Shown one piece after another: positions 33,384-54,271 of a DNA stretch of 64,000 nucleotides (positions are counted from its first letter, which is position 1; each line of letters opens with the position of its first letter). Source of the stretch: Phytohabitans rumicis (GTDB lineage: Bacteria > Actinomycetota > Actinomycetes > Mycobacteriales > Micromonosporaceae); the NCBI RefSeq assembly GCF_011764445.1, contig NZ_BLPG01000001.1, positions 5,394,001 to 5,458,000 of the forward strand, written 5' to 3'. A program made the position numbers and the translations under genes. The notes under the pieces were generated by a model. It saw only the letters and a program-made list of their open reading frames with translations. It was not told where the DNA came from and made no database searches.

Positions 33384-33434
33384 TTGACCGGGAAGTCGTT
33401 CTGACTATAGTTCATCAATAGCGGATTTCATCAA
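33384..33434 (+). promoter_or_regulatory. Cluster promoter P1 with TCATCA direct repeat
   Basis: -35 TTGACC (33384-33389), 16-bp spacer, -10 TATAGT (33406-33411). TTCATCAA occurs at 33411-33418 and 33427-33434. The same arrangement is found at 35833, 47884 and 54221. Repeats overlap the -10 and start site, so a repressor would block it. Confidence 0.8.
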
Positions 33435-33467
33435 GCGAGGACCGCAACTCGAGAGGAGCGACGTCCG

Positions 33468-33743
33468 ATGATGGTTGAAGAGATCGAGCGGTCGGTGATC
33501 GAGATTCTCCGCGAGATGCACTACGAGGTCGGCGAGGGAGCCAGCGAGATGTCGCTCGGCCCGGACGGTCTCGAGCTCGACTCGCTCGCGGTCGCGGAGC
33601 TGGCGGTCCGGATGGAGGACAGCCACGGCGTCAAGCTGCCGGACGACGAGTTGGAGAAGTTTGCCGCCCTGACGCTGCACGAGCTGGCGGTGGAGGTGCA
33701 CCGCATGACCCAGCTCGTCAGCACCGCCGGGGAATCGGAATGA
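33468..33743 (+). CDS. Acyl carrier protein
   Basis: 91 residues from ATG 33468 (a second ATG follows). Four-helix carrier with LELDSLAVAEL; S39 is the phosphopantetheine site. EEIERSVIEILREM and DDELEKFAALTLHELAVEV are typical first and last helices. First gene of operon 1. It probably holds a starter or intermediate acyl chain for the free-standing ketosynthases. Confidence 0.88.
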   Translation: MMVEEIERSVIEILREMHYEVGEGASEMSLGPDGLELDSLAVAELAVRMEDSHGVKLPDDELEKFAALTLHELAVEVHRMTQLVSTAGESE

Positions 33744-33744
33744 C

Positions 33745-34407
33745 ATGACGGACACGATCCGGCTCACCAAGGCCGACTACGTCAAGCTGATGATCGAGGA
33801 GTCGGCGGACCTGGCCGACTACCTCGCCGATCTGGCCGCTCCGGACTGGGATGCACAGACCCTGTGCGCGGGTTGGCGCGTACGTCACGTCGTCAGCCAC
33901 ATGGCGGTCGGGCACACCATGGCGATGGGGCCGTTCCTGCGTACGATCGTCGCCTCCCGGGGCGTCGAGCAGGCTTCGCACCGGCTGGCGCTGCGCTACG
34001 GCGACAGCCATTCGCCGGCGGAGATCCTCGCGCTCTTCCGGGCCGGCACGACCGATCGACCGCGCGGCCCGGCGGGCTTCGTCGCGCCGGCCGAGCTGTT
34101 CATCGACCACCTGATTCACCACCAGGACATCCGCCGTCCGCTGGGGCACTCCCGGGTGATCCCCGCGCACCGGCTGGCCACCGCGCTGGACGTGCTGCCC
34201 CGGCTGGGCGGCCTGCTCAAGCCGCGCCGCCGGGTGCGCGGGCTGTGCCTGGTGGCGGAGGACATCGGACGCCGGGTCGGCGAGGGCGCCGAGGTGCGGG
34301 GCACGGCCGAGGCGCTGATCATGTGTGCCGGCGGCCGTGCGGCACCGTTGCCCGAGCTGTCCGGACCGGGCGCGGCGATCCTGGCCTCGCGCATCGGCGG
34401 GGCCTAG
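33745..34407 (+). CDS. DinB/mycothiol-dependent maleylpyruvate isomerase-like protein
   Basis: 220 residues from ATG 33745. WRVRHVVSHMAVGHTMAMG and FIDHLIHHQDIRRPLG carry the metal-binding His set of the DinB-2 fold; PTRRRVRGLCLVAEDIG-like C-terminal part (here PRRRVRGLCLVAEDIGRRVG) is usual for the actinobacterial branch. Relatives are mycothiol-dependent isomerases or transferases. In this cluster it may handle a reactive intermediate. Confidence 0.8.
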   Translation: MTDTIRLTKADYVKLMIEESADLADYLADLAAPDWDAQTLCAGWRVRHVVSHMAVGHTMAMGPFLRTIVASRGVEQASHRLALRYGDSHSPAEILALFRAGTTDRPRGPAGFVAPAELFIDHLIHHQDIRRPLGHSRVIPAHRLATALDVLPRLGGLLKPRRRVRGLCLVAEDIGRRVGEGAEVRGTAEALIMCAGGRAAPLPELSGPGAAILASRIGGA

Positions 34408-34427
34408 ATACCCATAGGGAGACGAGG

Positions 34428-34949
34428 ATGAGCACGACCGCACGCTCACCCGCGGTGCCGGGGCGCACGCTGCTACGCGTCGGCCTGGCCGGAATGGCCG
34501 TCGAGATGCTGTTCATCGGCGTGCCGGCATCGCTGGCCCCGGAATGGTTCTTCAACTGGTTCGCGTTCGGCCGTGGCTGGGCCGGCGCGATCGGGCCGTA
34601 CAACGAGCACTACGTGCTGGACCTGGGCTTCGTCTATCTGGCTCTGGGCGCGGTGCTGCTTTGGGCGACGTTCCGGCTGGGCCGCGACCTGTGCATTGCG
34701 GCGCTGGTCGGCAGCCTCGTGGCCAACCTGCCGCACCTGCTCTTCCACCTCGCCAACACGCAGGCACTGGGCACCGTGGACAACGTGTTGCAGGACGGCC
34801 TGCTCGGTTCTACCGTCGTGTACGGATTGGCCATGCTGTTGATGGTCTGGACTCGACCGGAGACGACCGAGGTGCCGACCGCGACCGTCCTGCGCCGCCC
34901 GGCGGAGCCGGCCCGGCCGTCCGTACGCGTGGGTGGAGAAGACCGGTGA
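34428..34949 (+). CDS. Four-span membrane protein
   Basis: 173 residues from ATG 34428, with GAGACGAGG upstream. About four hydrophobic spans (GLAGMAVEMLFIGVPASLAP, YVLDLGFVYLALGAVLLWAT, IAALVGSLVANLPHLLFHLA, GLLGSTVVYGLAMLLMVW). H-containing loop NLPHLLFHLANT may bind a ligand or metal. It overlaps the hydrolase gene (GTGA). Function unknown; a second small membrane protein is at 44058. Confidence 0.75.
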   Translation: MSTTARSPAVPGRTLLRVGLAGMAVEMLFIGVPASLAPEWFFNWFAFGRGWAGAIGPYNEHYVLDLGFVYLALGAVLLWATFRLGRDLCIAALVGSLVANLPHLLFHLANTQALGTVDNVLQDGLLGSTVVYGLAMLLMVWTRPETTEVPTATVLRRPAEPARPSVRVGGEDR

Positions 34950-35812
34950 CCTGGGAGCAGCTCGGTGGGGGTCGCACGACCGTCCAGACATCCGTCGGGC
35001 CGGTGGCATACCGCGAGTCCGGCGAGGGCAGGCCGGTCCTGTTCCTGCACGGGCTGCTCACCGATGGGCACTACTGGGACCGGGTGACCCCCTCGGTCCG
35101 GGACGCGCGGGTGATCGTGCCCGACATGCCGTTCGGATCGCATCGGTCGGCCATGCACCCGGCCGCGGACCTGACCCCGCCGGGTCTGGCCGCGCTCGTG
35201 GTGGAGCTGATCGACCGCCTAGAGCTGGAGCGGGTCACCCTGGTCGCCGGCGACTTCGGTGGCGCGGTCGCGCAGTTGGTGGCGACCACCCACGGCGACC
35301 GGCTGGACGCCCTGGTGCTGCACTCCTGCGACGCCTTCGACCACTTCTTCCCGCCGACGTTCTGGTACCTGCAGGCGTTCGGCTACCTGCCTCCCGGAGT
35401 GCTGTGGCTGGCCGGGCAGGGGCAGAAGCTGCCCGGCGCGCACAAGCAGCCGCTGGTGTTCGGCCGGGTGCAGAAGCGGCCGGTGCCCGCGGAGCTGGCG
35501 CGGTACTGGAGGCAGCCGTTCCTCACCGATCGCGCCGTACGCCGTGACGTGGTCAAGGTGCTGCGCGGGGTGGACCGGCGGCACACCAACGCGGCGGCGA
35601 AGCGCCTGCCCGCCTTCGACCGCCCGGTGCGCCTGGTCTGGGGCGACACCGGGCGGGTCTTTCCCATCGCGGACGGTCGCAAGCTGGCCGCGATGATCCC
35701 GACCGCGACACTGACCGTCGTGCCGGACAGCTATGCCCACGTGGCGATCGACGCGCCGGACGTCATGGCGTCCGAGATCAACGACATGCTGTCGGCCCGT
35801 CCGGGCGCCTGA
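34946..35812 (+). CDS. Alpha/beta hydrolase with Asp nucleophile (epoxide hydrolase / dehalogenase type)
   Basis: 288 residues from GTG 34946. LFLHGLLTDGHYW is the oxyanion HG region. The nucleophile elbow is AGDFGGAVAQ with D103 where esterases have Ser. VWGDTGRVFP gives the acid and YAHVAID the His. Asp at this place is the mark of haloalkane dehalogenases and epoxide hydrolases. Last gene of operon 1. Its substrate may be an epoxide or ester of the pathway. Confidence 0.82.
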   Translation: MTWEQLGGGRTTVQTSVGPVAYRESGEGRPVLFLHGLLTDGHYWDRVTPSVRDARVIVPDMPFGSHRSAMHPAADLTPPGLAALVVELIDRLELERVTLVAGDFGGAVAQLVATTHGDRLDALVLHSCDAFDHFFPPTFWYLQAFGYLPPGVLWLAGQGQKLPGAHKQPLVFGRVQKRPVPAELARYWRQPFLTDRAVRRDVVKVLRGVDRRHTNAAAKRLPAFDRPVRLVWGDTGRVFPIADGRKLAAMIPTATLTVVPDSYAHVAIDAPDVMASEINDMLSARPGA

Positions 35813-35832: not shown

Positions 35833-35883
35833 TTGACGGCCCTTTGGGTGTCACTATAATTAATCACTAGAGGAAGTCATTAG
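35833..35883 (+). promoter_or_regulatory. Cluster promoter P2 with direct repeat
   Basis: TTGACG (35833-35838), 16-bp spacer, TATAAT (35855-35860). Repeats TTAATCAC (35860-35867) and GTCATTAG (35876-35883) are the most diverged of the four sets. It drives the ten-gene operon 2, whose first start is GTG 35892. Confidence 0.78.
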
Positions 35884-35891
35884 ATGGGGAC

Positions 35892-37535
35892 GTGATCGGG
35901 CGCCCCGGCGACGCAAAGGAGAAGCCGTTGCGGTCGTACAGTTCCTACGTTGGGGGCGAGGACGTCCCGGGGAGCGAGTGGGTCTACTGCCTGCGAGCCT
36001 CCGCGCTACTGGCGGACGTACTGCCCGGCCTGGCGCTCAAGCGGGATCTGGAAAAGGGCAGGCGGCACGACGGCGACAGCCACGAGATCGTGGAGGCCCG
36101 CTGCGCCATCGCCGACGACGAGGTGTCCCAGCGCGCGCTGGAGGCGGCGCGGGCGGCCGCGCCCGTGTGGGGAGCGACCCCGCTGGACGTCCGGTTCCGA
36201 GTCATCGAACGGTTCCACGAGGAGTTGTGGCGGCGCCGGGAGGAGTTCGTCTCCGTCATCGTCGCCGAGGGGCACCCGCGCACGCTCGCCGAGTGGGAGG
36301 TCGCCTCGCTGCTGCGGTGCAGCGATGGGCCCACCACCGCCTGGTGCCGGCAGCAGATGGGCTGGGACTTCGTCGAGGGCGACCGGCAGCTCCGGCTGGT
36401 GCGCAAGCCCGACGGTGTGGTCGTGCTGAGCCCGCCGCTGAACGCCGCGGCGATCAGTTCGCTGTCCGGCGTGGCCGTGCTGGCCGCCGGCAACGCGCTG
36501 GTCGTGAAGGCGCCCCGCAGCTCGCCGTACGGGGTGATGTGGGCGCTGCGCGAACTGCTCGTCCCGGTGCTGGACGAGGTGGGCGCGCCGCCCGGGGTGC
36601 TCAACGTCCTCTGTGGACACCCCACGCAAATGATCGACCAGTGGATGGAGAGCCCGCTCGTCGACGACATCATGTTCTTCGGCAGCAGCGAGGTGGGCAT
36701 CCCGCTCGGCGTGGAGGCGGTCCGCCGGGGCAAGAAGCCGATCCTGGAGCTGGCCGGCAACGACGGCTGCGTGGTGTGGCGCGACGCCGACATCGACAGC
36801 GCCGCCGAGGCGCTCACCGAGTGCTTCTTCGGGTCGGGCCAGATCTGCATGGTGCCCAACTACGTGGTTGCCCACCCGGCGATCGCCGACGCCCTGATCG
36901 ATCGGCTGGTGAGCCTCGCCGGCAAGGTGCGTCCCGGCTACCCAGAGGACCCAGAGGTCCTGCTCTCGCCCGTCTACAAGACCGAGAAGTACTTCGCCTA
37001 CCTGAGCGAGGCCATGGAGATGGGCGCCGAGCTGCTCACCGGCGGCCGTCGCCTGGAGGTGGACGGCGAGCCGTCCGAGACCGGGATCTTCATCGAGCCG
37101 ACCGTGCTGCGGGTGAACGGGCTGGCCCGCGCGCGGGAGATGTCGGCGGTGGCCAAGGAGACGTTCTTCCCGTTGCTGCCGGTGGTGGTCGCCGAGGACG
37201 TGCCGGACGACCAGTTGCTCGGCGACGTGATCGGCTTCGTGAACGCCAACCCGTACGGCCTGCGGAACTCGCTGTGGGCGCAGAGCCCCGACGTGATCGA
37301 ACAGTTCGTCACCCGGGTCACCAACGGCGGGATCTTGAAGGTCAACGACTCGCACGTGGCCCTGCCGCCGTACCTCGCGCCCAACGGCGGGGGCGGGCTC
37401 ACCGGCGGGCCGTTCGGCGAACTGAACTATCCGATGCTGCGCACCTCGCACCTGCAGGGCATCAGCATCGGCACCGGCATCCAGCCCCGGCGCGCGGTCG
37501 TCGAGGCGTACGCGGCAAGGGAGGCAACCCGATGA
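35892..37535 (+). CDS. Aldehyde dehydrogenase-family oxidoreductase
   Basis: 547 residues from GTG 35892. Catalytic E286 (LELAGND) and C319 (GSGQICMVPN), K206 in VVKAPRSSP for NAD(P). The N-terminal ~65 residues exceed the normal family start. It oxidises an aldehyde or reduces an acyl thioester. Next to an aminotransferase it may supply the aldehyde that becomes an amine, or oxidise one. Stop overlaps the next start (ATGA). Confidence 0.88.
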   Translation: MIGRPGDAKEKPLRSYSSYVGGEDVPGSEWVYCLRASALLADVLPGLALKRDLEKGRRHDGDSHEIVEARCAIADDEVSQRALEAARAAAPVWGATPLDVRFRVIERFHEELWRRREEFVSVIVAEGHPRTLAEWEVASLLRCSDGPTTAWCRQQMGWDFVEGDRQLRLVRKPDGVVVLSPPLNAAAISSLSGVAVLAAGNALVVKAPRSSPYGVMWALRELLVPVLDEVGAPPGVLNVLCGHPTQMIDQWMESPLVDDIMFFGSSEVGIPLGVEAVRRGKKPILELAGNDGCVVWRDADIDSAAEALTECFFGSGQICMVPNYVVAHPAIADALIDRLVSLAGKVRPGYPEDPEVLLSPVYKTEKYFAYLSEAMEMGAELLTGGRRLEVDGEPSETGIFIEPTVLRVNGLARAREMSAVAKETFFPLLPVVVAEDVPDDQLLGDVIGFVNANPYGLRNSLWAQSPDVIEQFVTRVTNGGILKVNDSHVALPPYLAPNGGGGLTGGPFGELNYPMLRTSHLQGISIGTGIQPRRAVVEAYAAREATR

Positions 37536-38662
37536 GCTTCCTGGGACCGGAGCGGGAGACGCTGGAGCGGCTCCTGCCCGGGCTGGACAAGCAGCTGGCG
37601 GAGGTGCCGCTGCTCGAGCTGGAGACCCGCGAAGGCCCCGGCATCGAGATGTTTCGCAAGGCGGGCGGGCCCGGGTTGGTCATCCCGACCGCGTACAACG
37701 GTGTCGGAGCGACGGCGGTGGAGGCCGTGCGGGCGACGCGTGCGCTGGCCACCCGCTCGCCGTCGGTGGCGATAGCCACCACCATGCACCAGTTCTCGGT
37801 GGCCAGCCTGGTCGCGCTGGCCAAGGCGAGCAGCAGTTTCGAGTGGATGCTGCTGGACGGGGTGGCCGTGGACGGCCGGCTCGTGGCGTCCGGCTTCGCC
37901 GAAGGGCGGGCCGGGCAGGGCATCCTGTCGCCGACGCTCACCGCCCGCCGGGACGGCGACGTGCTGCGGCTCAGCGGCGCCAAGCGCCCGTGCAGCCTGA
38001 GCCGCTCCATGGACCTGCTGACGGCCAGCGTGGCGATCCCCGAGCCGGACGGCAGCGTCAAGCTGGGCGTCGCGATGATCCCGGCGCAGTCCGAGGGCAT
38101 CCGGATCGAGCCGTTCTGGTCCTCGTGGGTGCTGGCCGGCGCCCAGTCGGACGCGGTCATCCTCGACGACGTCGAGGTGCACCCGGACCTCATCGTCGAC
38201 CTCGGCACCGGCCTCGACGGCGAGTTGGACGACCTGCAGACGATTGGCTTCGTCTGGTTCGAGCTGCTCGTCACCGCCTGCTACCTGGGCATCGCCGCGG
38301 GGCTGGTGGAGCGGGTGCTGCTGGCCGGCCGGGGATCCGTCGAGGACCGGGCGCGGCTGGCCACCACGATCGAGGGCGCCTCGCTCATGCTGGACGGCGC
38401 CGCCAGCAACCTCGACGCTGGCGACGGCAGCAACGACGGGCTGGGCCGGTCGCTGGTCGTCCGGTTCGCCGTCGCCGAGATGGTCGGTACGGCCGTCCGC
38501 GGCGCGGTCGAAGCGCTCGGCGGGATGGCCTTCGTCTCCTCGTCGGAGGTCGCGTACCTGGCCGCGGCCACGCACGCCATCGCGTTCCACCCGCCGTCGC
38601 GGCACAGCGTCGCCGGCGCGATGGTCGAGTGGTTCGGTGGCCGGCCGCTCGTGATGAGCTGA
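37532..38662 (+). CDS. Acyl-CoA-dehydrogenase-like flavoenzyme
   Basis: 376 residues from ATG 37532, with AAGGGAGG upstream. Helical N-terminal domain, central beta domain (LTARRDGDVLRLSGAKRPCS; LGVAMIPAQSEGIRIEPFW), C-terminal helices (FVWFELLVTACYLGIAAGLV). The fold includes CoA-thioester dehydrogenases and group D flavin monooxygenases such as amine N-hydroxylases. No clear catalytic Glu stands out, so the monooxygenase option is open. A flavin reductase is not adjacent. Confidence 0.78.
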   Translation: MSFLGPERETLERLLPGLDKQLAEVPLLELETREGPGIEMFRKAGGPGLVIPTAYNGVGATAVEAVRATRALATRSPSVAIATTMHQFSVASLVALAKASSSFEWMLLDGVAVDGRLVASGFAEGRAGQGILSPTLTARRDGDVLRLSGAKRPCSLSRSMDLLTASVAIPEPDGSVKLGVAMIPAQSEGIRIEPFWSSWVLAGAQSDAVILDDVEVHPDLIVDLGTGLDGELDDLQTIGFVWFELLVTACYLGIAAGLVERVLLAGRGSVEDRARLATTIEGASLMLDGAASNLDAGDGSNDGLGRSLVVRFAVAEMVGTAVRGAVEALGGMAFVSSSEVAYLAAATHAIAFHPPSRHSVAGAMVEWFGGRPLVMS

Positions 38663-38675
38663 ACGGAGGCCGGTG

Positions 38676-39941
38676 ATGACAACCATCGACGAGAAGGCGC
38701 CGCCCGTCGCCGACCTCTACCGGCGATACCTGTCGCGGGGCAGGGCCCGGCTGGCCGACATCACCGGCGGGCACGTCGAAGTGGCGTCGTCCGGCGCCTG
38801 GGTCACGCTGGCGGACGGTACGCGGCTGCTCAACGCCGGCGGGTACGGCGTCTTCATCCACGGCGCCCGGCACCCGGCCGTCGAGGCCGCGGTGATCGAG
38901 CAGATCCGCACCCACCCGCTCGCCACCCGGATGATGCTGGAGCCGCAGGCGGCCCGCGCCGCGCAGGCCCTCGTCGAGGCGGCTCCGGCGGGGCTCGCGC
39001 GGGCGTACTTCGCGAATTCGGGTGCGGAGGCCGTCGAGGCCGCCATCAAGATGGCCCGCACCCGTGGCAAGACGCGACTGGTGTCCACAGTGGGCGGATA
39101 CCACGGCAAGACCATGGGCGCGCTGTCGGTGACCGCCAAGGACCTGTACCAGCAACCGTTCCGGCCGTTGCTGCCGCAGGTCTCGCACGTGCCGTACGGG
39201 GACGCGGGCGCGCTGGAGGAGGAGCTGCGGAACGGCCCCGAGGCGTGCGTGATCGTCGAACCCGTGCAGGGCGAGGGCGGCGTGGTGATCCCGCCACCGG
39301 GCTACCTGACCGACGTGGCCCGGCTGTGCCGCGAATTCGGCGCCCTCTTCGTGCTCGACGAGGTGCAGACCGGACTCGGCCGGCTCGGCACGTGGTGGGG
39401 CGCGGACCGGGACGGCGTGACCCCGGACGTGCTGCTGGTGGGCAAGAGCCTGTCCGGCGGCGTGGTGCCGGTCGCCGCCGCGGTGGCCACCGTCGAGGCG
39501 TTCGCCGCGTTCGACCGCGACCCGTACCTGCACACGTCGACGTTCTCGGCGGCGCCCATCGCGATGGCGGCGGCCCGCGCGGCCATCGAGGCGATCCAAG
39601 CGGACGGGCTGGTCGAGCGCTCCGCCTCGATCGGCGCGGAACTGCTGCGGAAGCTGCGCGAGTCGGCCGCGCTGCACTGCCCGCACCTGGTGCGGGAGGT
39701 GCGCGGCGCCGGGCTACTGATCGGCGTCGAGTTCCACCAGCCCGGCCTGTCCGGCGAGATGCTCGGCGAACTGCTCGAACGCCATGTCGTGGCCAACCAC
39801 TCGCTCAACGCCCACACCGTACTGCGACTCACCCCGCCGGCGGTCATGCGGGCCGACGAGGTCGACCACCTGGTCGACGCGTGCGACGGCGCGCTGCGCG
39901 CGCTGGGTGACCGCTACCCCAACCGAGCGGAGGACCGCTGA
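38676..39941 (+). CDS. Class III PLP aminotransferase
   Basis: 421 residues from ATG 38676, six bases after GGAGG (GTG 38673 is in frame). FANSGAEAVEAAIKMAR binds PLP phosphate; D228 in FVLDEVQTGLGR and K257 in VGKSLSGGVVP are the cofactor residues. The family works on omega-amino groups such as ornithine, GABA or alkyl amines. With the aldehyde dehydrogenase it could turn an acyl aldehyde into an amine. Confidence 0.92.
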   Translation: MTTIDEKAPPVADLYRRYLSRGRARLADITGGHVEVASSGAWVTLADGTRLLNAGGYGVFIHGARHPAVEAAVIEQIRTHPLATRMMLEPQAARAAQALVEAAPAGLARAYFANSGAEAVEAAIKMARTRGKTRLVSTVGGYHGKTMGALSVTAKDLYQQPFRPLLPQVSHVPYGDAGALEEELRNGPEACVIVEPVQGEGGVVIPPPGYLTDVARLCREFGALFVLDEVQTGLGRLGTWWGADRDGVTPDVLLVGKSLSGGVVPVAAAVATVEAFAAFDRDPYLHTSTFSAAPIAMAAARAAIEAIQADGLVERSASIGAELLRKLRESAALHCPHLVREVRGAGLLIGVEFHQPGLSGEMLGELLERHVVANHSLNAHTVLRLTPPAVMRADEVDHLVDACDGALRALGDRYPNRAEDR

Positions 39942-39942
39942 G

Positions 39943-40425
39943 ATGCGTCACGTCGAGATTTCCGCGTTCATCCCGGGCGCGAACCCAACAGAGGTGTTCG
40001 ACACGCTCAGCGACTTCGCCCGCTACCCGGAACTGGTCGAGATCGTCCGGGCGGTCACGGTGACCCCGGCGGTGGGCGACGGGCCGGTGCTCAGCACGTG
40101 GGAGGTGCTCTTCCGCAACGGCATCCTGCGCTGGACCGAGGAGGACTGGCTGCACCGCGACCGGCTGACGATCGACTTCGTGCAGACCGAGGGCGACTTC
40201 GAGGAGCTGACCGGCGGCTGGGTGGTGACCCAGCAGCCGGACGGCGTGGGCGTGGTCTTCTACAACGACTTCGACTTCGGCATCCCGAGCCTGGCCACCA
40301 TCATCGACCCGGTCGCCGAACGGGTGCTCACCGAGACGATCCAGCTCATCCTGGGCCGGCTGTTCGAGGGTGCGACGTTCCCGCCGGCGCGGGTCGCCAC
40401 CCCCGCCGGCCACGCCGAGGGCTGA
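39943..40425 (+). CDS. SRPBCC (polyketide cyclase/START-like) protein
   Basis: 160 residues from ATG 39943. VEISAFIPGANPTEVFDTLS, DFARYPELVEIVRAVTV and the C-terminal helix (ATIIDPVAERVLTETIQLIL) fit the Coq10/cyclase-like hydrophobic pocket fold. It may bind, cyclise or carry a hydrophobic intermediate. Substrate unknown. Confidence 0.82.
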   Translation: MRHVEISAFIPGANPTEVFDTLSDFARYPELVEIVRAVTVTPAVGDGPVLSTWEVLFRNGILRWTEEDWLHRDRLTIDFVQTEGDFEELTGGWVVTQQPDGVGVVFYNDFDFGIPSLATIIDPVAERVLTETIQLILGRLFEGATFPPARVATPAGHAEG

Positions 40426-40430
40426 TCGCG

Positions 40431-46977: not shown

Positions 46978-47868
46978 ATGACCGATCTCGACGCGCCCTC
47001 GCTGGACGTCCCGGAGGAGCAACTGCACCGCGCCATCCGGGACCACTACGACGGGCTGGTGCACCTCTACGAGAGCCTGTGGGGCGAGCACATCCACCAC
47101 GGCTACTGGGCGCCCGGCGAGGAGGGCGGGGACCGGCACGAGGCGCAGGTGCGGACCGTGCGGGAGCTGGTGGCGTTCGCCAGCGTGCCCACCGGCGCGA
47201 AGGTGCTGGACGCCGGCTGCGGTGTCGGCGCGCCGGCCGTGCACCTCGCCGGCGAGCTGGACTGCCGGGTGGAGGGCGTGACCCTGAGCCCGGCCCAGGT
47301 GGAACGCGCGATGGAAAAGGCCGCCGAGGCGGGAGTGGCCGACCGGACGAGCTTCCGCCAGCTCGACGCGCTGCGTACCGGGCTGCCGGACAGCTCGTTC
47401 GACGTGGTCTGGGCGCTGGAGAGCCTGGAGCTGATGCCGGACAAGACGGCGTTCCTGCGCGAGGCGTACCGGATGCTGCGGCCGGGCGGCACGCTCGCCG
47501 TGACGACCTGGTGTGTACGCGACGGCGGGTTCGACGCAGAGGAGTCGGCGATGCTGACCCAGATCTGCAAGGACTTCGCGATCCCGTACATGCTCCCGAT
47601 GGGGCGCTACGCGACCGAGTGCACGGACCTGGGCTTCACGAGTGTCCGGGTCGCCGACTGGTCCGAGCGGGTGCGCGCCTCGTGGGATGTCGACATGAAC
47701 TCCGACGCCATCCGGGCGCTGCTGCGCGACCAGTCGCACCGGTTGCGGCTGGCCCGTACCGAGGGTGTCGCCGTGCTCCGGCTCATCAAGGTGGTGCCGG
47801 TCATGCAGGCGGCGTACCGCCGTGGCCTCCTGCAGTACGCGGCCCTGCGGGCCGTCAAGCCCAGCTAA
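46978..47868 (+). CDS. SAM-dependent methyltransferase
   Basis: 296 residues from ATG 46978, with CAGGAGG upstream. VLDAGCGVGAPAVHLA (~76-90) is motif I; FDVVWALESLELMPD and MLRPGGTLAVTTW are motifs II/III. WGEHIHHGYW near residue 35 is typical of the tocopherol/sarcosine-type class. It methylates a small product, O or N. Last gene of operon 2. Confidence 0.9.
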   Translation: MTDLDAPSLDVPEEQLHRAIRDHYDGLVHLYESLWGEHIHHGYWAPGEEGGDRHEAQVRTVRELVAFASVPTGAKVLDAGCGVGAPAVHLAGELDCRVEGVTLSPAQVERAMEKAAEAGVADRTSFRQLDALRTGLPDSSFDVVWALESLELMPDKTAFLREAYRMLRPGGTLAVTTWCVRDGGFDAEESAMLTQICKDFAIPYMLPMGRYATECTDLGFTSVRVADWSERVRASWDVDMNSDAIRALLRDQSHRLRLARTEGVAVLRLIKVVPVMQAAYRRGLLQYAALRAVKPS

Positions 47869-47883: not shown

Positions 47884-47934
47884 TTGACGGGTCCCTTGTG
47901 CCCGTTATAATTCATCAACTAAGGATGTCATCAG
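47884..47934 (+). promoter_or_regulatory. Cluster promoter P3 with direct repeat
   Basis: TTGACG (47884-47889), 16-bp spacer, TATAAT (47906-47911). TTCATCAA (47911-47918) and GTCATCAG (47927-47934). It lies between the methyltransferase and the AMP ligase operon. Confidence 0.8.
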
Positions 47935-47967
47935 ACGAGGAAACACTAGTCCCGGGGGAGTGGCTCC

Positions 47968-49344
47968 ATGGGCAATTGGGTAGACGACGTTCTGTTGACT
48001 GGTGCTGGCGACGAGACCTGCATGCGCATGGGGTCGCCGGTTGACCGGGCGCGGCTGCGCGCCGAGGTGCTCGCCCGGCAGGAACGGCTGGCGGACGCCG
48101 GCCTGCGCCCCGGCGGCACGGTCGCGCTGCGCCTGCCACCGTCGTTGAGCTACATCGCCAACCTGCTGGCGGCATGGCGGATCGGTGCGCAGGTCACGTT
48201 GCTCGACCACCGGCTCACCCAGTACGAGGTCGACGCCGCGCTGGAGCGGGTGGGCGCGCAACTGGTCGTACAGCCCGCCGGGCCCGTCGCGGGCCCGCTG
48301 CGCTGCTACCACGTCTTCGACGAGATGGTGCTCCCGCTGGCCGGCCGGCCGGCGCAGACGCCGCACGTGCTGATCCAGCTCAGCTCCGGCTCGACCGGCC
48401 CGTCGAAGGTCATCGGGCGCACCGTCGAGGATCTGCTGGCCGAGATCGACCGCTACACCCGGATCGACGGCGTGCCGCGCGCCGGCGAGCGGTTCGTGCT
48501 GCTCGCCTCGATGGTGCACGTGCTCGGGCTGGTCGGTGGCCTGATGTACGGGCTGCACGCGCACGTCCCGTTCACCGTGCCGGAGCGGATGACCGTCGAC
48601 GACATCCGCGCGGCGATCGCGGCCGAGCCGGCGCCGACCACCGTCCTGGGCGTACCGGCCCACATCGAGCTGCTGACCGCGCCGCCGGCCCCGCCGCCCC
48701 GGCTCCCGCAGCTCGCTCGGATGACCACCGGCGGCGAGCTGGTGCGGGCGGACGTGGCCGCCCGGTTCGCCGACTGGTACGGCGTCACCCTCGGCAACAT
48801 GTACGGGATGACCGAGGTCGGGGTCATCGCCACCGACCTGGCCGGGGCGCACCGTCCCGCGCTGCTCCCGGCGCCGGGCATCGACCTGCGGGTCGGCTAT
48901 GGCCAGCTCCAGGTCGCCCGCGTGCAGTCGCCGTACGTGGGCCTGTCCGACCCGACCCGCTGGTCCAAGGGCTGGCTCAAGACCCGGGACGCGGCCACGA
49001 TCGACCCCGACACCGGGCTGGTGACGGTGCGCGGCCGGCTGGACTCGCTGGTCTCCATCGGCGGCCTCAAGGTCGACCTCACCGAGGTGGAGCACCTGGT
49101 GGCCGGCCTGCCCGACGTGGTCGAGGCGGTTGTCGCGTTCGACCGCGGCATCGAGGTGTACGCGGTGCTGCGCGACCCGACCACCCCGGACGACGTCGAC
49201 CGGGTGCTGGCGGAACGGCTGGCGCGCTACAAGCGCCCGAGCCGGTGGTACGTGCTGGACCGGCTGCCCCGGACGCCCAGCGGCAAGTTGGTCCGGGACC
49301 GGGCCGCACTGCGCAACGCGGCCGCCGCGCCCGTCCCGTCGTAA
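47968..49344 (+). CDS. Acyl-AMP/CoA ligase (ANL superfamily)
   Basis: 458 residues from ATG 47968. LIQLSSGSTGPSKV (~136-148) is the ATP loop, MYGMTEVG the A5 motif, GWLKTRDAATID and GRLDSLVSIGGLKV the hinge, RTPSGKLVRD the catalytic Lys. Somewhat short at the N-terminus. It would activate a carboxylic acid and load the ACP encoded next door. Confidence 0.9.
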   Translation: MGNWVDDVLLTGAGDETCMRMGSPVDRARLRAEVLARQERLADAGLRPGGTVALRLPPSLSYIANLLAAWRIGAQVTLLDHRLTQYEVDAALERVGAQLVVQPAGPVAGPLRCYHVFDEMVLPLAGRPAQTPHVLIQLSSGSTGPSKVIGRTVEDLLAEIDRYTRIDGVPRAGERFVLLASMVHVLGLVGGLMYGLHAHVPFTVPERMTVDDIRAAIAAEPAPTTVLGVPAHIELLTAPPAPPPRLPQLARMTTGGELVRADVAARFADWYGVTLGNMYGMTEVGVIATDLAGAHRPALLPAPGIDLRVGYGQLQVARVQSPYVGLSDPTRWSKGWLKTRDAATIDPDTGLVTVRGRLDSLVSIGGLKVDLTEVEHLVAGLPDVVEAVVAFDRGIEVYAVLRDPTTPDDVDRVLAERLARYKRPSRWYVLDRLPRTPSGKLVRDRAALRNAAAAPVPS

Positions 49345-49368
49345 AGCCCCGCCTCCACGAAGGGATCC

Positions 49369-49629
49369 ATGCAGATGGCCGACGACCTCCGCCACGCCGG
49401 CTGGCCGGCCCGGGAAGACATCATCGCGATCCTGGCCGAGGTGGGTCAGCGCCCGCCGGAGCTGGTGAGCGAGCGGATCGACTCCCTGGAGCTGGCCCGG
49501 CTGGTCTACGAGATGGAGTACCGGTACGACGTCCACCTGGACCTGACCGACGAGCGCCTGGTGCAGATGTCGACCGTCGGCGGCGCGGCGGACGTCGTGC
49601 GGGCCGCACGGGCGGCCGCCGATGGCTGA
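49369..49629 (+). CDS. Acyl carrier protein
   Basis: 86 residues from ATG 49369. ERIDSLELARLVYEMEYRYD with phosphopantetheine site S39. Between AMP ligase and ketosynthases, hence the probable partner of both. The next gene starts within its last codons. Confidence 0.88.
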   Translation: MQMADDLRHAGWPAREDIIAILAEVGQRPPELVSERIDSLELARLVYEMEYRYDVHLDLTDERLVQMSTVGGAADVVRAARAAADG

Positions 49630-50749
49630 GACCGCGGTGCTGACCGGCCTGTCCGCGGTAACCGCGGCCGGGCGGGGCACGGCACCGCTGCTCGCCGCCG
49701 CCCTGGACGGCGCCGCCGCGTTCGGTCCGGTCACCCGGTTCGACACCGGCTGCCAGCGGGTGGGCACCGCCGCCACCCTCCCGGACGCCACCGACCTGCC
49801 CGACGAGCTGGCCGGCGTGGTGGACGGAGCCTGCGCGGAGGCCGGCCTGAGTGCGGCCGACCGGGCGTCCACCCCGCTGCTGCTCGCCGCCCGGGTGGAC
49901 GCCACGCTGGCCCGGCTCAGCACCGGACAGCGGCAGGGCTACGGCGCCGCCGCGCTCGCCGGCATCGTGGCGGAGCGCTGCGGGCTGGGCGGCCCCCTGC
50001 GCGCGTACACCGCGGCCTGCGTCGCCGCGAGCACGGCGATCGCCGAGGCCGCCTCGATGATCGCCGCGGGCCGGCTGGACCGGGCCGTCGTGGCGGCCGG
50101 ATTCCTGGTGGACCCCGACAACCTCGCCCTCTTCGACGCCGGCCGGGCGCTCGCCGACGACGGCCGGATCCGCCCGTTCAGCGCCGGCCGCCGGGGCCTG
50201 CTGCTCGGCGACGGAGTGGCGGCTGTGGTGCTGGAGTCCGCCTCGGCGGCCCGCCGCCGGGGCACGCCGCCGCTCGCCCGGCTGGCCGGCTGGGGTCGCG
50301 CCGGCGACGCGTACCACGTATGCCAGCCGGATCCTGCCGGCGCCGGCCTGGCCAAGGCCATCGACGGCGCGCTGCGCCGGGGCGGCGTGCGGGCCGGCGA
50401 CGTCGGCTACGTCAACGCCAACGGCACCGGTACCCGGCAGTCCGACCCGGCCGAGGCCGCCGGGCTGCGGCGGGCGTTGGGCGACGCGGCCGGGACGACG
50501 CCGGTCAGCTCCACCAAGTCGGTGCACGGCCACGCGCTGGAGGCGTCCGGGCTGGTGGAGCTGGTGCTGACCGTGCTGGCCCTGCGCGCGGGGCGGCTGC
50601 CGGTGAACGCGGGCTACCTGGCGCCCGATCCGGATTGCGAGCTGGACCTCGTGCTCGACCAGCCGCGCCCGGTGGAGGCTGGGTACGCGCTGAGCGTCAA
50701 CTCCGCGTTCGGCGGTGCCAACACCGCGCTGCTGGTCGGTGCCGCGTGA
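49622..50749 (+). CDS. Ketosynthase-like protein with His-to-Asn change
   Basis: 375 residues from ATG 49622. C133 in YTAACVAAST is present, as are K299 and H304 in TKSVHGHALEASG. The first catalytic His (NAHGTGT) is replaced: YVNANGTGT, N267. C-H-N resembles the triad of FabH-type enzymes, so condensation or transacylation may differ from normal. It is followed by a truncated ketosynthase-like gene and a complete ketosynthase. Confidence 0.85.
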   Translation: MAETAVLTGLSAVTAAGRGTAPLLAAALDGAAAFGPVTRFDTGCQRVGTAATLPDATDLPDELAGVVDGACAEAGLSAADRASTPLLLAARVDATLARLSTGQRQGYGAAALAGIVAERCGLGGPLRAYTAACVAASTAIAEAASMIAAGRLDRAVVAAGFLVDPDNLALFDAGRALADDGRIRPFSAGRRGLLLGDGVAAVVLESASAARRRGTPPLARLAGWGRAGDAYHVCQPDPAGAGLAKAIDGALRRGGVRAGDVGYVNANGTGTRQSDPAEAAGLRRALGDAAGTTPVSSTKSVHGHALEASGLVELVLTVLALRAGRLPVNAGYLAPDPDCELDLVLDQPRPVEAGYALSVNSAFGGANTALLVGAA

Positions 50750-51288
50750 ACCTCCTGGACGAACTGGCCGGCGTCGCGGTGCGTTCGCGCGCGCAGTGGC
50801 CCGAGCCGGGTGACACCGGCCGGCCCGGCCAGGTCCCGGGGTTCGTGGCGTCGTCCTTCGGCCCGCTCGTCGCCGAGGTGGCCGAGCGCTGCCTGCGTGG
50901 GTGGCCGACCAACGACACGCACACGCGTACGGCGGTGGTGCTCGCCTCCGTGCGCGGCGATCTGGGCACCGCGACGGCCGTGGCCGAGGCCGTGGACGCC
51001 GGGCGGCGGGTGACGCCGCTGTTCTTCTTCCAGTCGGTGCCGAACTCGATCCTCGGGCACATCGCCGCCCGGTGGCGGCTGACCGGACCGCTGGTCTGCC
51101 TCAGCCCGATCGGCGACCCGCTGGCCGAGGCGGCGGCCGTGGCGGCCGGCCTGTTCGACGACGGCGACGCCGACGAGGCGCTGCTGATCGTCGCCGACCA
51201 GGGCTCCGCATACGGCGGGGACGACACCGCCACCGCGCTTCTCGTCGGCCCCGCCGACAGTCCGCACGACGAAGGGGTACGGCAATGA
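50746..51288 (+). CDS. Short ketosynthase-N-like protein
   Basis: 180 residues from GTG 50746 (GTGA). TPLFFFQSVPNSILGHIAAR, LTGPLVCLSPIGDPLAEAAA, DEALLIVADQGS fit the beta-ketoacyl-synthase N-like family (Ketoacyl-synt_2) seen in aryl polyene-type clusters. No C-terminal half or His. Probably a partner subunit, in the manner of a chain-length factor. Confidence 0.75.
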   Translation: MNLLDELAGVAVRSRAQWPEPGDTGRPGQVPGFVASSFGPLVAEVAERCLRGWPTNDTHTRTAVVLASVRGDLGTATAVAEAVDAGRRVTPLFFFQSVPNSILGHIAARWRLTGPLVCLSPIGDPLAEAAAVAAGLFDDGDADEALLIVADQGSAYGGDDTATALLVGPADSPHDEGVRQ

Positions 51289-52553
51289 CGACAGCAGCAC
51301 GGCCGGTGGCGGTGGTCACCGGCATCGGGTTGGTGACCCCGGTGGGCCGGGATCGCGACGAGTTCTTCGACGCGCTGTGCGTGGGCAAGTCCGGGCTGGT
51401 ACGGCCGCCGGAGGGGCACGAGCTGGACGGCATGGTGGACGCCGCCGCCTTCGCGCCGGACATCGAGCCGGGCTCGGTGCTGCCGCTCGTCGAGTCGCGC
51501 GGCGCCGACCGCTTCCTGCTGATGGGGCTCGCCGCGGCCGACGACGCGGTGGCCGACGCCGGCCTCGTCGTGGGGCAGGACGTCGATCCGCGGCGGGTCG
51601 CGGTCGCGGTGTCCAGCGGTGCGGGCGGGCTCATTACGTTCGAGCAGCAGGCGCTGGCCCGGCACGAGCGTGGCCAGGCGGGCGTCAGCGCCTTCCTCTA
51701 TCCGGCCTTCCTGGCCAACATGGCCGCCGCGCGCATCGCCATCAAGTACGGCATCCGCGGGTACAGCTCGGCCATCGCCACGGCCTGCGCCGCGAGCGCG
51801 CACGCCATCGCCGACGCGCTCCGCCTGATCCGCGCCGGCGACGCCGACGTCGTGCTCTGCGGCGGTGCCGAGGCGCCGCTGGGGCGTACCGGTGTGGCCG
51901 GCTTCGCGAACGCCCGGGCGCTGGCCCGGGGCTGGACGGATCCGACCGCGTCGAGCCGGCCGTTCGACCGGCGGCGCAACGGCTTCGTGCTCGGCGAGGG
52001 CGCGGGCGTCCTGGTGATCGAGCGGCGCGAGCACGCCGACGCCCGGGGCGTGGCCGGCTACGCCGATCTCATCGGCTGGGGCGGCACCACCGACGCCCAC
52101 CACCCGACCATGCCCCGGCCGGATGGTTCGGGCGCGGCGGAGAGCATGCGCCTGGCCATCGCCAGCGCCGGACTGGCGCCGGCCGATGTGGCCTACGTCA
52201 ACGCGCACGGCACCAGCACGAAGGCGGGCGACGTCGCGGAGACCCGCGCCATCCGCACCGCGTTCGGCGCGTACCAGCCGGCCGTCAGCTCCACCAAGTC
52301 GGTGACCGGGCACCTGCTCGGCGGCGCCGGGGTGGTGGAGTCCGCCGCGACGGTGCTCGCGCTGGCCCGCGGCACGCTCCCGCCCACACACAACCTCGAC
52401 GAGCCGGACCCGGACTGCGATCTGGACCACGTGCGGGGAATGCCGCGCACCGGCCAGTTCGGCGCCGCGCTCTCCAACTCGTTCGCCTTCGGCGGGCACA
52501 ACGTCAGCCTGCTGTTCGGCCAGCCCTCGACGCGTCTGCGCCGGGTTGATTGA
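51285..52553 (+). CDS. Ketosynthase (FabF-type)
   Basis: 422 residues from ATG 51285 (ATGA). C168 (ATACAASAHA), H308 (NAHGTST) and H343 (TKSVTGHLLGG) are all present. It condenses malonyl-ACP with an acyl-ACP or thioester. With the two preceding genes it may form a type II condensing complex. Confidence 0.92.
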   Translation: MTTAARPVAVVTGIGLVTPVGRDRDEFFDALCVGKSGLVRPPEGHELDGMVDAAAFAPDIEPGSVLPLVESRGADRFLLMGLAAADDAVADAGLVVGQDVDPRRVAVAVSSGAGGLITFEQQALARHERGQAGVSAFLYPAFLANMAAARIAIKYGIRGYSSAIATACAASAHAIADALRLIRAGDADVVLCGGAEAPLGRTGVAGFANARALARGWTDPTASSRPFDRRRNGFVLGEGAGVLVIERREHADARGVAGYADLIGWGGTTDAHHPTMPRPDGSGAAESMRLAIASAGLAPADVAYVNAHGTSTKAGDVAETRAIRTAFGAYQPAVSSTKSVTGHLLGGAGVVESAATVLALARGTLPPTHNLDEPDPDCDLDHVRGMPRTGQFGAALSNSFAFGGHNVSLLFGQPSTRLRRVD

Positions 52554-52575
52554 CACACCGAGGAAGGGGAATCCG

Positions 52576-53475
52576 ATGGGTATGTTCCACCTCACCGAAG
52601 ATGAGCGAAGGCTTCTGCCGACCGACGAGGAGGTGCAGACCTACCTCGAGCGCGGTTGGTACCTGTCCCGCAAGCTGCTGACCGACGACGAGGTCGACGC
52701 GCTGGTGGACGGCAGCGAGCGGTTCTACGCCGGGCACCGCGACCGCCGGCTGCCCAGCCGCCCGGCCAAGCTGGCGTACTGGGAGCCGGAGCACGGCCCG
52801 GTCCAGCGACACAACGACTACGTGCACTACGAGAGCGACGAGATCGCGCGCATCCTGCGTAAGCCGATCATCGGCGCGGTGGCCGCCCGGCTCGCCGAGG
52901 CGGCCGAGGTCCGGCTCTTCCAGAGCACGCTCATCTACAAGCCGCCGAGCGCGAACGAGCCGACGAACATCGTGCCGTGGCACTTCGACCGCCACTACTG
53001 GCAGTCGTCCACGTCGGAGCGGATGCTCACGGCCTTCGTCCCGATGCACGACTGCGGCGAGGAGATGGGCACGCTGACGGTCGTCGACGGCAGCCACCTG
53101 TGGAAGGAGACCGGCGCCACCGACAGCACCACCCGGCACTTCGCCGAGCGGGACCCCGCCGAGCTGGACGAGATGCTCGAGGAGAACGCGCGGTACAACG
53201 ACGCCGAGGTGAACAAGATCGTCATGGACATCCCCAAGGGGCACATGAGCTTCCACCACTGCCGGACGTACCACGGCAGCGGCGCGAACCGCTCCGACCG
53301 CCCGCGCCGCGCGATCTCGCTGCACATGCAGGACGGCGAGAACCAGTACCGCGAGTTCCGGCGGGCGGACGGCAGCGTCGTGGTCTACAACCACGACACC
53401 CTGGTACGCCGGACGGCCACCGGCAAGCCGGACTACGCCGACCCGGAGTTCTGCCCGGTCCTTTGGAGGTCCTGA
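52576..53475 (+). CDS. Phytanoyl-CoA dioxygenase-family Fe(II)/2OG oxygenase
   Basis: 299 residues from ATG 52576. WHFDRHYW gives H136 and D138, TYHGSG the distal H233, and RPRRAISLHM the 2-oxoglutarate Arg. It hydroxylates or otherwise oxidises a C-H bond. Last gene of operon 3; its 3' end overlaps the convergent thioesterase by 43 bp. Confidence 0.9.
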   Translation: MGMFHLTEDERRLLPTDEEVQTYLERGWYLSRKLLTDDEVDALVDGSERFYAGHRDRRLPSRPAKLAYWEPEHGPVQRHNDYVHYESDEIARILRKPIIGAVAARLAEAAEVRLFQSTLIYKPPSANEPTNIVPWHFDRHYWQSSTSERMLTAFVPMHDCGEEMGTLTVVDGSHLWKETGATDSTTRHFAERDPAELDEMLEENARYNDAEVNKIVMDIPKGHMSFHHCRTYHGSGANRSDRPRRAISLHMQDGENQYREFRRADGSVVVYNHDTLVRRTATGKPDYADPEFCPVLWRS

Positions 53476-54227
53476 GCCAGTGCGGCGCGCAGCCGGCCGG
53501 TGACGGCGGCGACGAACCCGGGGTCTTCGAGCAGGAAGTGGCCGGCGTCGAGCACCGTCAGGTCGAACCGGCCGGCCGTCTCCCGCTCCCAAGCCAGCGC
53601 GCCCGCACCGTCCGCCATCCGGTCGTGCCGGCCCACGTACGCGGCGACCGGGCAGGGCAGCGGGTCGCCGGGCGCGCGGGCGTACAGCTCGGCGATGCGC
53701 AGGTCGGCCCGCAGCGCCGGGAGGAACTGGCGCATCAGCCGCGGGTCGCGCACCACCGACTCCGGCGTCCCGCCGAGGCGGTGCAGCGCGACGACGAGCT
53801 GCGCGTCCGGTAGGGCGTGGATCGGCCGGTGCGACTGGGCCGCGGACGGGCCGTTGCGGGCGGCGGTGAGCAGCAGCCGTGGCGGCCGGCCCGCGCGGTG
53901 CAACTCCCGGGCGACCTCGTACGCGAGCACGGCGCCGAAGCTGTGCCCGAACAGGACCACCTGGTCCGCCCGGCCGGAGTCGGCGGGGGTCGCGTCGGCG
54001 ATGGTGCCGGTCACCTCGGCCACCAGCGCGGGCAGGTCGGTGATCAGCGGCTCGCGGCGGCGCCGGCCGTGGCCGGGGAGGTCCACCGGGACCACGGTGA
54101 CGCCCTCCGGAAGCCACCGTGCCCACCCGGCGAAGTGCGCCGCCGCGCCGCCGGCGTGGGGTAGGCAGAAGAGCTCCAACGAGGACTGTCGGTAGGCCGC
54201 CGTCCAGAGATCGTTCCCCATTGACAT
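53433..54227 (-). CDS. Type II thioesterase
   Basis: 264 residues from ATG 54227 or 54221. LFCLPHAGGAAAHFAGW, nucleophile S96 in LFGHSFGAVLAYE, and DAGHFLLED. TEII enzymes remove wrong acyl groups from carrier proteins. Its start codon overlaps the -35 box of the divergent PKS promoter P4, so the two are expected to share control. Confidence 0.92.
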   Translation of the reverse strand: MSMGNDLWTAAYRQSSLELFCLPHAGGAAAHFAGWARWLPEGVTVVPVDLPGHGRRRREPLITDLPALVAEVTGTIADATPADSGRADQVVLFGHSFGAVLAYEVARELHRAGRPPRLLLTAARNGPSAAQSHRPIHALPDAQLVVALHRLGGTPESVVRDPRLMRQFLPALRADLRIAELYARAPGDPLPCPVAAYVGRHDRMADGAGALAWERETAGRFDLTVLDAGHFLLEDPGFVAAVTGRLRAALAQDLQRTGQNSGSA

Positions 54228-54271
54228 CCCCTAACCCGTACGTAGACTTCATCAAACAGGGAAATCATCGA
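54221..54271 (+). promoter_or_regulatory. Cluster promoter P4 with direct repeat
   Basis: TTGACA (54221-54226), 16-bp spacer, TAGACT (54243-54248). TTCATCAA (54248-54255) and ATCATCGA (54264-54271). Drives the PKS genes. The thioesterase start lies inside it. Confidence 0.8.

Follow-up and report, generated by a model that had tools for sequence, protein, structure and literature searches.

Four operons of an antibiotic-type gene cluster in the 64,000-nucleotide stretch of the Phytohabitans rumicis genome analysed here (the window) share one promoter-proximal block, which raises the question of what reads this block and with what effect. A preliminary description of the locus proposed that one shared regulator, probably a repressor, binds over the start site, with the TetR gene beside the first promoter as the obvious candidate, and remarked that direct repeats are not the usual palindromic TetR site. 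Distantly related actinomycetes carry blocks of the same kind in their chlorinated-pyrrole clusters, and this recurrence suggests that a gene for a dedicated repressor is located just beyond the window. Among the open-licence PubMed Central matches listed, no paper describing these operators was found.

Layout and confinement of the block

The block aligns without gaps at P1 to P4, as had been reported, with TTGAC starting at 33384, 35833, 47884, and 54221 (Table 1). The spacing of 16 bp given earlier also holds when counted from the six-base TTGACN, corresponding to 17 nt after TTGAC, and is followed by the -10 hexamer and, directly 3' of it, by two units with starts 16 bp apart. The GA/GG-rich stretch, which had been listed as a further element, is present as part of each 16-bp unit rather than separate from it: GGA occupies unit positions 12–14 in all 16 units of the five sites of this genome and the three sites of a related genome (G365). 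The four sites are real, their number is not complete, as a fifth, P5, lies at window-equivalent position 81428 (C1:5475428), 17.4 kb past the window end. Among the four in the window, P2 departs furthest from the others (TAATCA / TCATTA). P1 to P5 are taken as sigma70/HrdB-like promoters with the initiation region as putative operator; the units abut the -10 hexamer at all five sites and overlap the promoter core around the predicted start. At P4 the -35 extends into the beginning of the divergent thioesterase gene, which is possibly under the operator of P4 too; the same order of thioesterase, block, and polyketide synthase is found in another locus (L212).

Table 1. Positions of promoters, putative operators, and genes, numbered from the first base of the window
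Feature	Position	Strand	Details
TetR1, candidate of the preliminary description	32794–33324	-	
P1 promoter	33384–33411	+	-35 TTGACC (33384), -10 TATAGT (33406–33411)
P1 putative operator	33412–33441	+	TCATCAATAGCGGA (33412–33425), TCATCAAGCGAGGA (33428–33441), 16 bp apart, over predicted start
Genes after P1, presumed operon	33468–35812	+	carrier protein 33468–33743; MDMPI_N protein 33745–34407; small protein 34455–34949, membrane-like by eye; alpha/beta hydrolase 35003–35812
P2 promoter	35833–35860	+	-35 TTGACG, -10 TATAAT (35855–35860)
P2 putative operator	35861–35890	+	TAATCACTAGAGGA (35861–35874), TCATTAGATGGGGA (35877–35890)
Genes after P2, presumed operon	35928–47868	+	aldehyde dehydrogenase (start probably TTG at 35928), acyl-CoA-dehydrogenase-like, class III aminotransferase, cyclase-like, MMPL, FAD monooxygenase, small protein with weak DUF4260 similarity, LPG_synthase_C, DAO, methyltransferase
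P3 promoter	47884–47911	+	-35 TTGACG, -10 TATAAT (47906–47911)
P3 putative operator	47912–47941	+	TCATCAACTAAGGA (47912–47925), TCATCAGACGAGGA (47928–47941)
Genes after P3, presumed operon	47968–53475	+	AMP ligase (ATG 47968); small carrier-protein-like ORF (0 Pfam matches), ketosynthase-type proteins, PhyH dioxygenase
Thioesterase gene	53433–54227	-	divergent from P4
P4 promoter	54221–54248	+	-35 TTGACA, -10 TAGACT (54243–54248)
P4 putative operator	54249–54278	+	TCATCAAACAGGGA (54249–54262), TCATCGAGCGGGGA (54265–54278)
Type I polyketide synthase genes after P4, first part	54327–64000	+	run on past the window
TetR3	window-equivalent 73077–about 73700		TetR_C_16 gene; McsH counterpart by gene order
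TetR2	C1:5474744–5475355 (window-equivalent 80744–81355)		TetR_N/TetR_C_16 gene beside P5

Within the window the pattern TTGACN{16,18}TAKARTTMATCA matches three times (P1 to P3) and not once in 100 shuffles. The two-unit pattern alone, with up to two mismatches, yields five matches where a mean of 0.92 is expected, a number reached in one of 100 shuffles; these are P1 to P4 and a match at 34100, taken as chance as it lies inside coding sequence. In the whole 10.7-Mb genome the scan returned exactly five sites (at most two mismatches), all on the plus strand and all in one cluster, and none with the reversed pattern, so that in this genome the block is confined to this cluster. When the scan was extended to 354 genomes of the family, this one included, it gave five sites here, three in G365, and one in G389, where the reversed control also gave one. 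G365, which carries a homologous cluster, is the only convincing case among the 353 others. Its three sites precede orthologues of the genes after P3, P4, and P5, and the block is absent from its P2-equivalent promoter. A second, weaker matrix match in G365 (16.0, lower strand) and lone matches in G028, G100, and G389 were taken as chance, as was a single match in G001 (L012), situated at the junction of two coding frames. The five-site and family scans thus support the proposal of a common regulator over the start site of a cluster-only regulon, in which the role of a repressor is the most likely one by position.

Relatives of the acyl-CoA-dehydrogenase-like protein encoded after P2 occur in 38 of the 354 family genomes, again counting this one. 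None of the six 20-kb regions examined around such relatives contains a site; their best score is 5.0, where G365 reaches 43.3. The block thus seems to track the chloropyrrole part of the cluster and not this type of operon. A unit-pattern search had three matches in this genome and none in 373 others, and the exact 36-letter pattern, in which the right halves of this genome are demanded, had none in either genome_contigs or viral_contigs, records from which the genome of the window or very near ones may be missing.

Arrays of 16 bp in related chloropyrrole clusters

The direct repeats noted earlier are 16-bp-phased arrays of the pseudo-palindrome TCAWCRNNYGWTGA, as found in related chloropyrrole polyketide clusters. 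In 80 halogenase loci 28 pairs of units (from 11 loci) are spaced by 16 bp, whereas the 20 other spacings between 10 and 30 have zero to three each. In a search of 2.07 Mb, which included the discovery sites, a -10 hexamer followed by two TCA[ATC]C[AG] units was matched 14 times at period 16 and never at any of the ten remaining periods between 11 and 21. Arrays were found in 12 of 19 genomes, 17 of which had been picked from the 80 loci, nearly all for showing arrays or TetR2-like genes, and the reversed control was negative in all 19. In each of five Streptomyces genomes two blocks lie 33–39 kb apart on one contig. This yields a sequence rule, TTGAC, 17–18 nt, a -10 hexamer, and TCAWCR units every 16 bp, which marks chlorinated-pyrrole operons in several actinomycete genera.

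Compared with the palindrome, the units of this genome and of G365 keep four to six of six positions in their left halves and two to five of six in their right halves. In the window NRRGGA takes the place of the palindromic right half, and the left half alone retains the palindromic form. Comparison with the relatives probably resolves the apparent conflict between direct repeats and a palindromic TetR site: the units are adjacent, 16 bp apart, and pseudo-palindromic in the relatives, and degenerate right halves would explain the look of direct repeats.

As judged from the position of the -10 hexamer, part of the conserved stretch lies 3' of the predicted start, and it might act in RNA, as a 5' leader or initially transcribed sequence. 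This is very improbable: the first TCATCA precedes the predicted +1, the arrays of relatives comprise two to four units, some of them extending over the -10 hexamer, and the palindromic form of the unit in relatives is what a DNA-bound dimer would require.

Candidate regulators

TetR1 points away from P1, the block lying between the two, and this position made it the first candidate. This assignment was not borne out. Although three sites are kept in G365, no orthologue of TetR1 was found there: none of the ORFs called in the cluster matches TetR1, and the best match in that genome (36% identity) is far from the cluster. The recognition helix of TetR1, TTKGSFYWHF, also differs from the HHFF type associated with the units. 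Because of the lacking orthologue and the different helix, regulation of the block by TetR1 is extremely improbable. A repeat finder run on 33300–33470 for an inverted repeat as separate operator of TetR1 gave only two imperfect pairs.

The only regulator-like genes found in common, among the shared ORFs of this cluster and that of G365, are TetR2 (66–67%) and TetR3 (63% over its C-terminal half). TetR2 (TetR_N 2.6e-15, TetR_C_16 7.8e-30) corresponds in gene order to McsO of the pyrrolomycin K/L cluster. In the tetR2 promoter of G365 the lower strand has two copies of TCATCG, spaced by 16 bp, and the tetR2 promoter of this genome has one clear unit, TCATCACCTGAGGC. In other clusters, too, arrays adjoin TetR2-like genes. 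In 17 picked genomes a 16-bp array lies within 1.5 kb of six of nine TetR2 relatives with 45–50% identity and of one of 21 less similar ones (fetched from 43 found). A unit scoring at least 11 of 12 is present at ten of 20 loci with an HHFF helix and at two of 30 others (L181 and L186), with a Fisher p of 0.0007 which ignores kinship; the helix grouping was made after the array-spacing scores had been seen, and 60 shuffled palindromes averaged 0.7 of the 20 HHFF loci, with a maximum of five. As several TetR2 loci overlap halogenase loci, these tests are not independent of those above. No unit of 11 of 12 occurs at the TetR2 locus of either this genome or G365, and both were counted as misses. 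Within 1.5 kb no convincing array was found for the HHFF relatives L055, L056, L167, and L168, and a single unit at best for L171, L175, L187–L190, and L192. Control spacings score 17–19 in several of the loci, no lower than the 17 of the locus studied here.

TetR3, alone or together with TetR2, might act on the block instead. It is likewise conserved in both clusters, the units with their fixed GGA are asymmetric, and CGATGAA occurs in the intergenic region between TetR3 and the acyl-dehydrogenase gene in both genomes. Against TetR3, its coding frame is interrupted in this genome although all five sites have stayed intact, it has a recognition helix of the VRHYY type, and elsewhere the arrays adjoin TetR2-like genes, so that a part for TetR3 is unlikely. 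It is quite improbable that a regulatory module which predates the families now carrying it travels with chloropyrrole clusters, in which 16-bp arrays would be read by TetR_C_16 dimers on alternate DNA faces and the asymmetry in the window (TCATCA left, NRRGGA right) would stem from a heterodimer of the paralogues TetR2 and TetR3; if so, two signals would be needed to open all five operons.

A regulator from outside the cluster or of another family could also bind the repeats. In five loci with no TetR2 relative found (L090, L092, L094, L095, and L098) the best ones of those genomes (37–40%) are on other contigs. Against this stands that units accompany HHFF-type TetR_C_16 genes more frequently than they do other TetR genes, and that TetR relatives of 32–35% occur on both cluster flanks on the L090, L092, L094, and L095 contigs and one of 34% on one side in L098. 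Either kind of regulator is improbable.

TetR2 is therefore favoured as the most likely regulator of the block, and it is probable that TetR2 acts as repressor of a dedicated regulon, through tandem operators that span the predicted start sites of P1 to P5. From sequence we infer an operator of two tandem 14-bp pseudo-palindromic sites (6-2-6) with starts 16 bp apart, ranging from about -6 to about +24. TetR2 dimers on neighbouring units, possibly binding cooperatively, would mask the -10/+1 region and obstruct RNA polymerase, which would keep all five operons silent together. A product or late intermediate would probably release TetR2, and the cluster and TetR2 itself would be switched on. 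Deletion of tetR2 should accordingly activate the entire cluster in one step, and a structural question becomes testable, namely the packing of TetR dimers on sites separated by 1.5 turns.

Comparison with known systems

The pyrrolomycin K/L (mcs) cluster of Micromonospora sp. RB23 comprises the polyketide synthase genes mcsB and mcsC, four phenol-type halogenase genes (D–G), the regulator gene mcsH, adenylation/oxidase genes I and J, transporter gene L, methyltransferase gene N, the regulator gene mcsO, and the pyrrole halogenase gene mcsQ (PMC12670696). The G365 cluster follows this gene order and the present cluster nearly so, with additional operons (P1 to P3) and HPPD, FMN-dehydrogenase, and aminotransferase genes. 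The mcs paper names both regulators but no operators, its main text being without the words promoter or TetR (PMC12670696).

CalR3, a TetR repressor of the calcimycin cluster, binds a 31-bp site with a 14-bp palindrome over promoter cores, represses its own gene, and is released by calcimycin and cezomycin (PMC5712553). It resembles the putative TetR2 repressor in being cluster-situated and in having its site at the promoter core; the sequence is another one (motifs compared by eye), the main site is one palindrome at one divergent promoter, and CalR3 represses calT and itself rather than five biosynthetic operons (PMC5712553). Cooperative binding of two TetR-family dimers to one operator is described for CprB and QacR, with the CprB dimers on opposite faces of one 22-bp element (PMC4150764). 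Here, in contrast, the sites are adjacent, do not overlap, and form arrays of two to four, 16 bp apart, right after the -10 hexamer. The shared operator of QacR is 28 bp long. DarR also places two dimers on one operator, and the non-matching half site in its second pseudo-palindrome resembles the degenerate right halves found here (PMC10636190).

PltZ, from pyoluteorin-type clusters, is a TetR repressor which responds to a small antimicrobial and has a 16-bp site overlapping the predicted -10 hexamer; it differs in its motif (TNNAATTNNAATTNNA, compared by eye), in its host Pseudomonas, and in controlling an exporter operon (PMC7360687). Heptameric direct repeats at antibiotic-operon promoters are the operators of SARP regulators (PMC5930380). 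Among the cluster proteins scanned, which represent part of the ORFs, no SARP-type domain was found. SARP repeats are 11 bp apart and lie upstream of the -10 hexamer, whereas the units described here lie downstream of it with a period of 16, with 14 matches at 16 and none at 11.

The block and its five occurrences

The four blocks P1 to P4, each a promoter with two operator units, lie where the preliminary description had placed them and align base for base. They consist of TTGAC, 17 nucleotides, a -10 hexamer and then, abutting, two 14-bp units that begin 16 bp from each other. The pattern TTGACN{16,18}TAKARTTMATCA had three matches in the window and none in 100 shuffles. The two-unit pattern by itself is weaker evidence, with five window matches against 0.92 expected and five also reached in one of 100 shuffles. 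Transcription is predicted to start about 7 nucleotides after the -10 hexamer, where the first TCATCA ends, and the units would then span roughly -6 to +24.

A scan of the whole Phytohabitans rumicis genome (10.71 Mb in three contigs, the window being C1:5394001-5458000), as had been proposed earlier, gave exactly five matches with at most two mismatches, all on the forward strand: P1 to P4 and a fifth block, P5. The reversed pattern gave none. Downstream of P5 a small carrier-protein-like reading frame, with no match in Pfam, is followed by a halogenase gene. Among 101 genomes including this one, three others had one match each; one of these is a coding junction and was rejected as a site. 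The exact pattern, a stricter one which P2 and P5 fall outside, matched in this genome alone (three times) among 374 genomes drawn from the class.

Features of the cluster and its surroundings (window or window-equivalent positions unless a contig is named)
Feature	Position	Strand	Remark
tmRNA gene	801-1173		
Phage-type region	801-31146		also exonuclease, DnaB-like helicase, connector, tail/endolysin
Terminase	14796		
Portal	16332		
Major head	18275		
Integrase	30325	-	
TetR1	32794-33324	-	beside P1
P1	33384	+	
P2	35833	+	
P2 operon	35928-47868		
tRNA-Ser (act) call	43618-43717		within coding region
P3	47884	+	
P4	54221	+	
First PKS gene	about 54327-60142		apparent frame change
TetR3	73077 to about 73700		apparent frame change
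P5	C1:5475449	+	17.4 kb past window end
TetR2	80744-81355		beside P5
HPPD-type to aminotransferase genes	83174-86706		L008 3174-6706
FMN-dehydrogenase gene	84262-85329		match partial

All five operons belong to a polyketide cluster, which also encodes a prolyl-carrier dehydrogenase; the NCBIfam matches of this protein, to RedW/PigA, did not reach the curated cut-offs. Further products are an amino-acid adenylation enzyme, a flavin reductase, an MFS exporter and Trp_halogenase-type proteins. Judged by sequence, this gene set would serve to make a chlorinated pyrrole. The P5 operon further holds an antiporter gene and HPPD/hydroxymandelate-synthase-type, FMN-dehydrogenase and aminotransferase genes; the latter three are also found in the sister cluster of G365 and form a set of the kind used for hydroxyphenylglycine. 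An apparent change of frame occurs in several genes. In the first PKS gene it falls between ketosynthase and acyltransferase; TetR3 is another case, and the FMN-dehydrogenase gene perhaps a third. Either assembly indels or gene decay would account for them. The tRNA-Ser call is probably a false positive. Next to the cluster lies what looks like a prophage, with PHROGs matches for nine of the ten proteins scanned, possibly inserted at the tmRNA gene.

Sister cluster and 16-bp arrays in related loci

The genome G365, from another genus of the family, was reached through a protein of the P2 operon (68% identity), and of the 44 cluster reading frames called from 33468 to 88028, 34 matched its region in BLAST at E up to 1e-8. 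A longer pattern with at most two mismatches, searched for in 354 family genomes, had five matches in P. rumicis and three in G365. G389 had a single one, as did the reversed control in that genome. The G365 sites precede an AMP ligase, a PKS and a carrier-protein/halogenase operon, orthologues of the genes after P3, P4 and P5. In them TTGAC and both units are conserved, as is, for the most part, the -10 hexamer (TGTACT at the P4 equivalent), whereas the sequence of the gap has not been conserved. No such units are present in the G365 promoter before aldehyde dehydrogenase, the P2 equivalent, which counts against a uniform rule. Relatives of the acyl-CoA-dehydrogenase-like protein encoded in the P2 operon occur in 38 of the 354 family genomes, this one included, and perhaps mark a widespread sub-cluster; the block was absent from six such regions scanned.

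Loci were then taken from other actinomycetes around 80 of 120 relatives of the P5-operon halogenase, and a matrix built from the eight P. rumicis and G365 sites had strong matches in several of them. The 16-bp units there take the form of a pseudo-palindrome, TCAWCRNNYGWTGA, and stand two to four to an array. Pairs of units that together scored 20 or more of 24 numbered 28 at spacing 16, versus 0-3 at each of 20 other spacings between 10 and 30; the 28 come from 11 loci, which include the putative case of L157 and five closely related Streptomyces clusters, so that the independent cases are fewer than 11. With a lower score bar 45 pairs were found at spacing 16 versus 0-15 at 13 other spacings. 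A -10 hexamer followed directly by two units occurred 14 times at period 16, discovery sites counted, and never at ten other periods. The full block with its -35 was found at nine places outside P. rumicis and G365 (L089, L090, L091, L092, L094, L095, L098, L164 and L165), by a stricter grammar which P2 and the G365 P4 equivalent fall outside.

Nineteen genomes were searched whole (P. rumicis, G365 and 17 from the 80 loci, nearly all picked for arrays or TetR2-like genes); arrays occurred in 12, one match (G404:C22) looking like chance, and the reversed control in none. Five Streptomyces genomes carry two blocks each on the same contig, 33 to 39 kb apart. In L212 (same place as L165) thioesterase and PKS genes diverge from the block, as around P4, and are adjoined by a TetR2 relative (49%). 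Arrays also precede antiporter genes (L201, same place as L211; L202; L204; L214), 32-35% identical to that of the P5 operon, and the same regulation may therefore extend to export or resistance.

The repeats had been described as direct ones. This holds for the P. rumicis units as seen, but in the related clusters each unit is a pseudo-palindrome. In P. rumicis and G365 the left half fits the palindrome at 4-6 of 6 positions and the right half is NRRGGA (GGA in 16 of 16), a divergence which explains the impression of direct repeats. L089 and L165 likewise have GGA-like right halves.

Candidate regulators

TetR1, the candidate favoured in the preliminary description, matches none of the reading frames called in the G365 cluster, and its best match in that genome (36%) lies elsewhere. 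Two regulator-like genes were found among the reading frames common to both clusters, both TetR_N/TetR_C_16 (Pfam, part of the reading frames): TetR2, 66-67% identical between the two, and TetR3, 63% identical over its C-terminal half and interrupted in P. rumicis. Upstream of tetR2 there is one clear unit in P. rumicis, and in G365 TCATCG twice on the lower strand, 16 bp apart; this may point to autoregulation.

Seventeen picked genomes yielded 52 TetR2 relatives, and the loci of 30 of these were retrieved. An array lay within 1.5 kb of six of the nine with 45-50% identity, versus one of the 21 less similar ones; L163, L164 and L165 are on contigs other than their genomes' halogenase loci, the remaining TetR2 loci mostly overlapping these. 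Across the 50 TetR loci scanned, a unit scoring 11 or more of 12 was present in 10 of 20 with the HHFF recognition helix of TetR2 versus 2 of the 30 without it (Fisher p = 0.0007 with kinship left out of account, the grouping having been set after inspection of the sequences). The P. rumicis and G365 loci were scored as misses, because of their right halves. Sixty shuffled palindromes gave a mean of 0.7 of the 20 HHFF loci and at most 5, for a near-relative of the motif; at control spacings, pair scores reached 19 in some TetR loci. A tree was built of 42 proteins: 40 from the 50 loci, plus TetR1 and the G365 TetR3. The array rows do not form a single clade in it. Nine array rows versus five single-unit rows required two changes (shuffled mean 4.4, 5 of 500 as low), the other 28 rows being in neither group.

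Proposed mechanism and known systems

Most likely, the block works through repression by TetR2: its dimers would occupy neighbouring units over the start site and shut RNA polymerase out of five promoters otherwise close to consensus, until released by a product or intermediate. Among the matches listed from the open-licence literature, none described a 16-bp-phased block common to five operons or its recurrence in chloropyrrole clusters from several genera. Cluster TetR repressors and operators with two dimers are already known kinds. The gene order resembles that of mcs, the pyrrolomycin K/L cluster of Micromonospora sp. RB23, which runs, by gene letters, PKS, halogenases, regulator mcsH, adenylation enzyme and oxidase, transporter, methyltransferase, regulator mcsO and pyrrole halogenase mcsQ; TetR3 stands in place of mcsH and TetR2 of mcsO, equated by gene order only (PMC12670696). 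Precedents for such a mechanism are offered by CalR3 of the calcimycin cluster, which the product releases from a site with a 14-bp palindrome lying over promoter cores (PMC5712553), by CprB and QacR, of which two dimers share an operator (PMC4150764), and by DarR, whose operator has a non-matching half site (PMC10636190).
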